From Solirubrobacterales bacterium (GTDB lineage Bacteria; Actinomycetota; Thermoleophilia; Solirubrobacterales; 70-9), in contig JAMLGI010000007.1 in the NCBI GenBank assembly GCA_023958085.1, positions 62,001 through 126,000 of the forward strand: 64,000 nt of DNA, read 5' to 3'. The notes under the pieces are model-generated. The model saw only the letters and a program-made list of their open reading frames with translations, was not told the DNA's origin and made no database searches. Position 1 is the first letter of the stretch, and each line of letters starts with the position of its first letter. The translations under genes were made by a program, and so were the position numbers. This document shows positions 25,344 to 39,011 of this stretch, one piece after another.

Positions 25344-25730
25344 ATGGCAACCAGCACCGAAGAGTGGATTGAGGAACTGAAGGGCATCACCGTGCTCGAA
25401 CTCTCCGAGCGGATCAAGGCGCTCGAGGAGGAGTTCGGCGTTTCGGCGACCGCCGTCGCAGCCGCCGCCCCGGCCGCAGCGGGCGGCGACGCCGGCGGCG
25501 ACGCCGGCGCCGAGGAGAGCTCGACCGTGGACGTGGTCCTGACCTCGCCGGGCGAGAAGAAGGTCCCGGTCATCAAGGTCGTCCGTGCCGCCACCGGCCT
25601 CGGCCTCAAGGAGGCCAAGGCTCTGGTCGACGAGGCCCCCAAGGCCGTCAAGGAAGGTCTGGAGAAGGACGAGGCCGAGAAGCTCAAGGCCGAGCTCGAA
25701 GAGGCCGGCGCCAGCGTCGAACTCAAGTAG
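25344..25730 (+). CDS. rplL: Ribosomal protein bL12
   Basis: 128 residues. N-terminal dimerisation domain ([19 protein letters not shown]), an Ala/Gly hinge, and a C-terminal factor-binding domain ([20 protein letters not shown]). The multi-copy stalk protein recruits EF-G, EF-Tu and IF2. It is followed by two hairpins that probably reduce read-through towards the inserted cassette and rpoB. Confidence 0.96.
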
Positions 25731-25824: not shown

Positions 25825-25841
25825 CCCGCAAAAAAAGCCCG

Positions 25842-25888
25842 CCGAGGTGTCGATTATCCGGTATAGTGCCGGTTCTCCTACACCTCGG
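25842..25888 (+). repeat. 47-nt palindromic repeat, copy A
   Basis: Outer arms CCGAGGTGT/ACACCTCGG (extendable to 11 bp) enclose an inner CCGG-TATAGTG-CCGG. It differs from copy B (26943-26989) at three of 47 positions. Read in one frame it encodes RRGVDYPV followed by a stop. Confidence 0.85.
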
Positions 25889-25927
25889 CGAACTGAGTGG
25901 GCCCCTTGGGGGCGTCCGCCTTTCGTC

Positions 25928-25958
25928 GCAGTTCTGTTCATGAACTGGCAAGAACTGC
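25928..25958 (+). promoter_or_regulatory. Dyad operator-like site before the AbiEi gene
   Basis: GCAGTTCT (25928-25935) mirrors AGAACTGC (25951-25958), and inside lies the perfect palindrome GTTCATGAAC (25936-25945). AbiEi-type proteins are known to repress their own promoters through inverted repeats, so this is a plausible autoregulatory site. Confidence 0.4.
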
Positions 25959-25995
25959 GCACCACCTGTGTTCCTGCGCTGGGCAACCTCGCACC

Positions 25996-26967
25996 ATGCG
26001 CATCAATCCGAAGTACCCGCTTGCCCGAATCCGCCGATATATGTCCAGCCGCCGCTGGGTCGCCCACCGTGCCGAGCTGGTTGCGCTCGGAGTCCGAGAG
26101 AAGCGGATAGACGACCTGGTCAGGTCACAGCGTCTGACCCCTGTGCTGCCCGGCGTATACGCATTCGGGCGAGATATCGAAACCAAGGAAGCGGCATACC
26201 GGGCGGCCTTACTGGCTGCGGGACCGGGGTCGGTCCTGAGCGGCCGGAGCGCCTGTGAGCTCTGGGGCCTGGTTGCGTCCCCGGCGGGTATCCCGCGTCG
26301 GATCACGGTAGCTTCGCCAAGACAGAAGGCGGTCACGGTGTCAAGTCGGTCGAAGGCTCTGGCCCAAACCAGGGTTCGGGTGACCCACCGTAGCCTTGAC
26401 CCGGATGAGCTCCGCCGCCGTAACGGTCTGGACGTGACCTCGCCTGCGCGCTCATTGATCGACTTCGCAGCGGAAGCCACCCCGCGCCAACTGCGATTCG
26501 CCTTCCTTGAGGCCTGTCGTCTCGGGCTGTTCAACCGCCGGGACGTCGCGTACTGCTATCGACGCATCGTGGGTCGCCGAGGGGCGAGAAGACTGAGGCC
26601 ACTGCTGGCCCTCTGGCAACCGGAGCTGGGACGGATCAGATCCGTCCTGGAGGGAACTTTCCTGCTGGCCTGGATCGCGTATGGAGGAGCCATGCCGAAG
26701 GTAAACGCAAAGGTCTTCGGCTACGAAGTCGATGCGTACTGGCCCGACCACGGGCTGGTGGTCGAGCTGGACGGTCGGACCTACCATCGCGGTCCGGTTT
26801 CGCGGGCGCGCGATGCCGAAAAGGACAGATACCTGCGCAGCCGGGGACTCACCGTGCTCCGGTTTGACACCGATGCGGTGAATAAAGCAATCAACCGGGT
26901 GGTCATGGAGGTAGCCAACCATCTGGCACCCTCCCAATCCCGCCGAGGTGTCGACTATCCGGCATAG
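25996..26967 (+). CDS. AbiEi-type antitoxin domain fused to DUF559 nuclease-like domain
   Basis: About 323 residues from ATG 25996. The N-terminal part is an AbiEi-like winged-helix (HRAELVALGVREKRIDDLV, then LPGVYAFG), followed by the usual LSGRSACELWGL segment. The C-terminal ~100 residues resemble DUF559, a Vsr-like PD-(D/E)xK fold: EVDAYWPDHGLVVELDGRTY with RDAEKDRYLRSRGLTVLRF. The acidic pair and lysine expected for such nucleases are visible. No separate AbiEii toxin gene lies next to it. The last residues (SRRGVDYPA) and the stop are encoded within repeat B. Genes of this kind are frequent in actinobacteria; their function is not settled. Confidence 0.75.
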   Translation: MRINPKYPLARIRRYMSSRRWVAHRAELVALGVREKRIDDLVRSQRLTPVLPGVYAFGRDIETKEAAYRAALLAAGPGSVLSGRSACELWGLVASPAGIPRRITVASPRQKAVTVSSRSKALAQTRVRVTHRSLDPDELRRRNGLDVTSPARSLIDFAAEATPRQLRFAFLEACRLGLFNRRDVAYCYRRIVGRRGARRLRPLLALWQPELGRIRSVLEGTFLLAWIAYGGAMPKVNAKVFGYEVDAYWPDHGLVVELDGRTYHRGPVSRARDAEKDRYLRSRGLTVLRFDTDAVNKAINRVVMEVANHLAPSQSRRGVDYPA

Positions 26968-26989
26968 TGCCGGTTTTCCTACACCTCGG
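26943..26989 (+). repeat. 47-nt palindromic repeat, copy B
   Basis: Same design as copy A. The flanks add further pairing (CCCAATCC at 26933-26940 with GGATTGGG at 26991-26998), so the whole forms a long stem at the 3' end of the AbiEi-DUF559 gene. It supplies that gene's stop codon and probably ends its transcript. Confidence 0.85.
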
Positions 26990-27008
26990 TGGATTGGGGG
27001 GGGAGGGG

Positions 27009-27036: not shown

Positions 27037-27123
27037 TTCTAAGGCTGCGCGAAGTTGCCCCGGTTTTCGCCGCTTTCAGCGCCTGATCACGTGAATCTCT
27101 GACCCCCCGAGGAGTTGCCTCTC

Positions 27124-30648
<3,525 letters not shown>

Positions 30649-30656
<8 letters not shown>

Positions 30657-38953: not shown

Positions 38954-39011
38954 TCGAGGTGTCGCTTATTCGGCATAATCCCGGGTTTTCGACACCTCGG
39001 CGGATTTTTTT
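38954..39011 (+). terminator. Palindromic repeat copy C, acting as terminator
   Basis: The first 47 bases match repeat B at about 38 positions, with arms CGAGGTGTCG/CGACACCTCG. They are followed by a run of eight T, so this copy has the form of a Rho-independent terminator after rpsG. Because the next gene is convergent, it may serve both strands. In the same frame as the other copies it reads RGVAYSA then a stop. Confidence 0.75.

Follow-up and report, generated by a model that had tools for sequence, protein, structure and literature searches.

Non-autonomous palindromic repeats of bacteria are usually moved by RAYT enzymes (PMC8049555), and the two main super-families of REP sequences are marked by a GTAG or CGTC tag at their ends (PMC3733652). 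Long DNA sites are also bound by the antitoxin AbiEi, which attaches to two inverted repeats of 23 bp, separated by 3 bp, to repress its own operon (PMC7319586), and by the homing endonuclease I-Bth0305I, which acts as a dimer on a DNA target of nearly 60 bp (PMC3943268). Here we describe a locus with features of each of these systems. It lies in a stretch of 64,000 nt from a Solirubrobacterales bacterium (contig JAMLGI010000007.1, positions 62,001 to 126,000; hereafter the window), where a gene encoding an AbiEi-DUF559 protein is located between two copies of a palindrome in the junction of rplL and rpoB. Genes of this kind are paired with cognate palindromes and lie between copies of them, the palindromes are dispersed alone or as doublets, a doublet has been copied, and occupied as well as empty sites are found among relatives. 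We consider it probable that the AbiEi-DUF559 proteins and their cognate palindromes of about 45-50 bp constitute a small repeat system that is mobile or once was. In the open-access literature (subscription journals were outside the search) we found no paper pairing DUF559 or AbiEi-DUF559 proteins with palindromic repeats.

A predicted nuclease gene between two palindromes

The two repeats, 25842-25888 and 26943-26989, are directly oriented and share 44 of 47 bases; each is palindromic, and their likeness reaches 87% across 67 nt. We refer to them as family 1. The left palindrome spans 25840-25890 (core 25843-25887, centre ATA) and is one of about 12 copies in the genome, the right one spans 26941-26992 (core 26944-26988). 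The AbiEi-DUF559 gene lies between them on the forward strand (25996-26967, 323 aa), and its stop codon TAG (26965-26967) falls in the centre of the right palindrome. The longest reading of its open reading frame (ORF) starts at GTG 25897 and gives 356 aa. As ATG 25996 is the likely start, the left palindrome precedes the gene by about 105 nt. Neither an AbiEii (DUF1814) nucleotidyltransferase toxin gene adjoining the gene, whose neighbours are rplL and rpoB, nor a transposase gene inside the unit was found, the AbiEi-DUF559 gene being the only long gene there. An earlier note on this DNA had described a single gene flanked by two direct palindromic repeats and ending inside the right one, with no AbiEii toxin beside it and no transposase in the unit, and our analysis agrees with it in all these respects.

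The same note had named DUF559 and AbiEi as the parts of the protein, and both assignments held. DUF559 is detected with an E value of 7e-10, and the AbiEi part stays under the Pfam cut-off (E 0.02) and is clear with the PADLOC AbiEi models (E 9e-21). The predicted structure is confident (mean predicted local distance difference test, pLDDT, 91). In this model residues 7-208 match the AbiEi antitoxin 6y8q (Z 12.1, 4.8 Å over 183 residues), while for residues 214-315 the matches are I-Bth0305I, an EDxHD homing endonuclease, in its catalytic domain (3r3p; Z 12.5, 2.5 Å over 96 residues) and Vsr (1cw0; Z 10.8, 2.5 Å over 100 residues). The protein is therefore predicted to join an AbiEi antitoxin fold to an EDxHD homing-endonuclease/Vsr domain. 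Residues E219, D246, E257, D259, H264 and D273 are invariant in 26 divergent homologues, the ratio of nonsynonymous to synonymous substitution rates is 0.09-0.15 (three pairs, one of them near synonymous saturation) and the 14 closest genes are intact, so that judging by sequence the nuclease apparently is intact as well. Apparent internal stops in homologues turned out to be overextended matches. We found no assigned function for AbiEi-DUF559 proteins.

Such a composition brings to mind a defence or conflict module, in which an AbiE-derived protein with a nuclease acts against invading DNA or RNA and the palindromes serve as operators, self-markers or decoys. The N-terminal part does match AbiEi defence models and EDxHD/Vsr-type nuclease domains do cut DNA. 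However, neither a toxin partner nor defence genes are adjacent at rplL-rpoB, and this explanation, to which we give very little credence, leaves the dispersed cognate palindromes, the doublets and the copied doublet described below unaccounted for.

Palindrome families and their cognate genes

Pattern searches of the whole genome, a draft of 2.44 Mb in 31 contigs, returned 8 exact sites of family 1 and 12 at up to 3 mismatches. A reversed control pattern gave none in the same searches, and the focal repeats are far beyond chance. Besides the three copies in the window there are about nine others elsewhere. All copies examined outside the focal locus are single and located at gene 3' ends, several of them between convergent genes. 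Examples are the copy after metE and the third copy of the window (38955-38999), which lies at the rpsG 3' end ahead of a convergent gene. In 60 relatives family 1 was not found at up to 2 mismatches; the protein is encoded in 48 of the 61 genomes searched, the window's genome included. The genomes compared are mostly drafts, and the relatives stand at species distance.

Homologous genes within the genus are flanked by palindromes of equal size and plan and of other sequence. On both sides of the second AbiEi-DUF559 gene of the window's genome lies a different palindrome, family 2, of which the genome has at least 58 copies. In this genome the dispersed part is thus the palindrome, lone or as a doublet, and the gene is present once per palindrome family. 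Another family is common to genomes G010, G013 and G015 (9, 6 and 12 copies) and has no copy in ten other species, so it appears confined to species with the related gene. G058, which belongs to another family of the order, holds 21 copies of a further palindrome, two of them upstream and one downstream of its gene. Under a strict rule, by which the two flanks of 400 nt had to share a palindromic repeat, 27 of 42 genus genes passed, compared with 2 of 114 control ORFs, which rules out chance flanking repeats. The genes that failed include ones with farther or less regular palindromes (L003, L072, L077, L078, L053, L059). We abandoned a cruder test that did not ask for palindromes, as its background was inflated by repeats within the window.

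Among 40 hand-picked palindromes, similarity of the palindrome follows similarity of the protein (Mantel r 0.49, 0 of 2000 permutations): the mean palindrome score is 22.5 above 60% protein identity and about 6.5 below 35%. Of 149 sampled Actinomycetota genomes, 45 have AbiEi-DUF559 proteins, with up to 12 matches each, and by inspection, with no control set, flanking pairs were seen in other families of the phylum (for example L225, L230, L234, L237, L238, L239, L243). These relations also bear on whether the palindromes are moved in trans by another enzyme, e.g. a RAYT or IS200/IS605-type transposase, with the DUF559 gene merely adjacent or inserted beside them. Although RAYT is the usual mover of such repeats, and these genomes were not searched for other transposases, we hold this to be decidedly improbable: the palindrome varies in step with the DUF559 protein, different DUF559 genes of one genome are flanked by different families, and the link between gene and palindrome recurs across the phylum.

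Searches in Rfam gave no match near the gathering score, and those for carriage by phages and plasmids gave partial matches only, mostly to the nuclease domain. We rejected transposition as the origin of the two copies of the second gene on contigs C29 and C7. Gene and upstream flank are the same in both (99.7-100%) and C29 ends within a palindrome, which makes assembly redundancy or a strain variant broken at the repeat likelier; L136 (G000:C29:1-8668) repeats part of L137 (G000:C7:44000-54000) at 99.7-100% identity. In other genera (L021, L024, L028, L033, L034, L036) the palindrome and the probable start of the DUF559 gene seem to overlap; the centre of the palindrome is often CATATG, CTATGG or CCATGG, the start codons being approximate. 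Furthermore, between two gene ends at L212:560-612 (G010:C11) there is a nearly perfect palindrome of 53 nt (GACGCAGGTCTTG...CAAGACCTGCGTC) that belongs to another family.

Doublets, occupied sites and symmetry

Family 2 often occurs in direct doublets, the unit being two complete palindromes in direct orientation about 71 nt apart. The spacer measures 28 nt in 16 of 17 doublets, two of which belong to a redundant contig, and 29 nt in one. Spacer sequences are unrelated, with the exception of one copied pair. Two doublets on different contigs are identical at 107 of 114 positions including the spacer, while their flanks agree near chance level (21/60 and 16/60); the doublet was therefore copied as a unit with clean edges. 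Centre-to-centre distances of 71-73 nt recur in several unrelated palindrome families, not in all. At L173 (G058:C1, ~279050-279400) we noticed an array of at least five palindromes spaced by 70-81 nt, with no DUF559 gene in the 3 kb examined near it.

Comparison with relatives revealed occupied and empty sites. One junction between convergent genes has 8 nt between the aligned ends in G003 and G007, 68 nt with a lone palindrome of the genome's own family in G010, and 133 nt with a different palindrome in G001. The rpsG 3' end carries family 1 in the window's genome, a palindrome like the one around its own gene L049 in G007, and another one in G002. Between rplL (25344-25730, forward strand) and rpoB (27115-30656, forward strand) the unit is absent from some relatives, with gaps of 168-254 nt; the gaps are short in G004, G006 and G008. 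The earlier note had proposed this comparison, and it did bring out junctions lacking the unit. G012 has a lone palindrome in this junction that resembles those around its gene L071, which is located elsewhere, and in G009 and G010 a homologous gene is present. The three junction genes do not form one clade (approximately unbiased test, p 0.0044), which suggests repeated arrival of genes at this place, to be read with caution as the branches are long.

Some further observations were made at these sites. Within the window rpoB is divided between two overlapping ORFs, 27115-28434 and 28362-30656, that differ in frame, with the break near 28310-28330 (window 28300-28440); a draft-assembly indel is likelier than a true break in an essential gene. 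In L211 (G015:C159) the convergent junction that has only 8 nt in G003 and G007 is taken up by a gene for a 597-aa secreted protease-like protein. The DNA inserted at L121 in G015 and next to rpsG in G010 proved to be unrelated genes, and the insertion in G009 showed no palindrome in the part read. Around position 1500 of L112 (G010) and L108 (G013) an orthologous lone palindrome is inverted, with differing outer arms and aligning flanks. Either the flipping of a cruciform or the exchange of the palindrome for a different copy would account for this.

The palindromes themselves follow a common plan. Family 2 keeps symmetric blocks across two 23-nt halves around one base, and pairing at the variable positions that separate these blocks is mostly 14-46%. 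Because these variable stem positions pair so poorly, recognition of half-sites in duplex DNA is favoured over selection for a hairpin stem. Hairpin or cruciform forms could still play a part, since the outer arms of the TTGAAG family covary. The trinucleotide ATA or TAT stands at the centre of 28 of 40 palindromes, compared with 9.6% off centre. The poor pairing also speaks against a family of ordinary bidirectional terminators unrelated to the gene. Copies at gene 3' ends between convergent genes would fit such a family, and the inner stem of the right focal palindrome followed by TTTT was the only terminator-like match of our scan. However, most copies have no T run, and the rpsG end of G007 has a separate terminator-like hairpin with a T run beside its palindrome. 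The earlier note had named a terminator family unrelated to the gene as the finding that would overturn its proposal; as the palindrome is cognate to the gene and limited to certain species, and what is conserved in it is not a terminator sequence, this explanation is already largely refuted and extremely improbable.

Duplex recognition would also suit a regulator and its regulon, i.e. a repressor of the AbiEi type acting on its own gene via the upstream palindrome, with the dispersed copies as further regulatory or chromosome-organising sites, the nuclease domain in another role and no mobility at all. The precedent of AbiEi on its own operon, the palindromes overlapping likely gene starts in several other genera and the conserved blocks with poorly pairing positions between them all fit this explanation. 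It does not account for the second palindrome, which follows the gene. Of the dispersed copies examined, the majority are located at gene 3' ends rather than in promoters, and often the genes on either side converge. In addition, sites at the same junction differ between species, a doublet was copied with clean edges, and the nuclease residues are invariant. We therefore regard a purely regulatory role as unlikely.

Proposed mechanism and relation to known systems

Beyond a repeat system as such, we lean slightly towards a broader interpretation, in which selfish palindromes are widespread in Actinomycetota and each has a homing-like nuclease of its own, of AbiEi type, that binds and spreads it. 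Gene lineages would each coevolve with a private palindrome and build doublets at a fixed spacing of about 71 bp, as a transposase-free counterpart of REPIN-RAYT. For the repeat system as such we propose the following mechanism. Two monomers would bind the two half-sites of about 23 bp via their AbiEi parts, as AbiEi does on its operator. The dimer may then bring its pair of EDxHD/Vsr-type nuclease domains to the conserved ATA in the middle of the palindrome or to a cruciform extruded from it. Once the DNA is cut or nicked, repair by the host could copy the palindrome, or the pair, to new tolerated sites. The gene kept between two copies would act as the source, and the upstream copy probably serves for autoregulation too.

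Several points weigh against such a mobile repeat system. We did not find a complete palindrome-gene-palindrome cassette at a second site of the window's genome. The earlier note had taken the palindromes for the ends of a mobile or domesticated cassette, and this stands in so far as they belong to the gene, their family is dispersed over some 12 sites and homologues have cognate palindromes of their own; the same unit was not recovered elsewhere, only the palindromes being dispersed. Binding, cleavage and movement are inferences from sequence and predicted structure. In G010, G013 and G015 the locus that bears the gene is orthologous, being inherited at one place, and two lone palindrome sites are common to different species, so that movement would have to be infrequent; at one of these two sites the copy is inverted and differs in its outer arms, although its surroundings align. 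Intergenic flanks are too diverged at species distance to define a target-site duplication. Outside the genus only 2 of 17 homologues pass the strict flanking rule, many having no clear flanking pair. The analyst's choice of palindromes may have biased the co-divergence test, and no search for other transposases was made in these genomes.

The pairing of protein and palindrome offers a direct and cheap test of what AbiEi-DUF559 proteins bind and cut, and the natural pairs are a ready set for studies of long-site DNA recognition. If mobility is shown, this would be a type of repeat-spreading enzyme with no relation to known transposases, and a single gene would connect toxin-antitoxin antitoxins with Vsr repair nucleases and homing endonucleases. 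Behaviour as a repeat-spreading enzyme is a stronger claim than any family label.

Among described systems REPIN-RAYT likewise has a single enzyme gene for each repeat family, with palindromes of that family on its flanks, and non-autonomous copies dispersed between genes; doublets with variable spacers, lone copies and lineage-specific sequences are further shared features. In contrast, the linked enzyme here has an AbiEi fold and an EDxHD/Vsr nuclease instead of an HUH/Y1 tyrosine transposase (other genes of the genome were outside the search), and the doublet consists of two complete direct palindromes at a fixed distance of about 71 nt, not of two inverted REPs forming one hairpin. Inspection of the repeat ends in families 1 and 2 showed no GTAG or CGTC tag, and copies are fewer (about 6 to 60). 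With enzyme, repeat plan and spacing all different, the system is not a member of REPIN-RAYT. I-Bth0305I has the same catalytic fold, with residues that match the invariant E257, D259, H264 and D273 of the present family, and binds its long target as a dimer, as we infer for the present protein. Its counterpart here, known from sequence and predicted structure, has an AbiEi-like DNA-binding part and is tied to dispersed palindromes rather than located in an intron. AbiE type IV toxin-antitoxin systems share the N-terminal two-domain AbiEi fold and an operator close in length to the palindrome; unlike them, the present locus has a fused nuclease, dispersed operator-like sites and no AbiEii gene, and it fell outside the AbiE definition. 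Vsr mismatch endonucleases have the nuclease fold but not the extra AbiEi part or linked palindromic repeats, and our locus has no methylase gene. Transposons and insertion sequences differ in that the unit has no transposase gene, and intrinsic terminator families in being stem-loops with a T run and no gene-specific link. As no known family accommodates the system, we set it apart as a new kind, with a logic that has its precedent in REPIN-RAYT.
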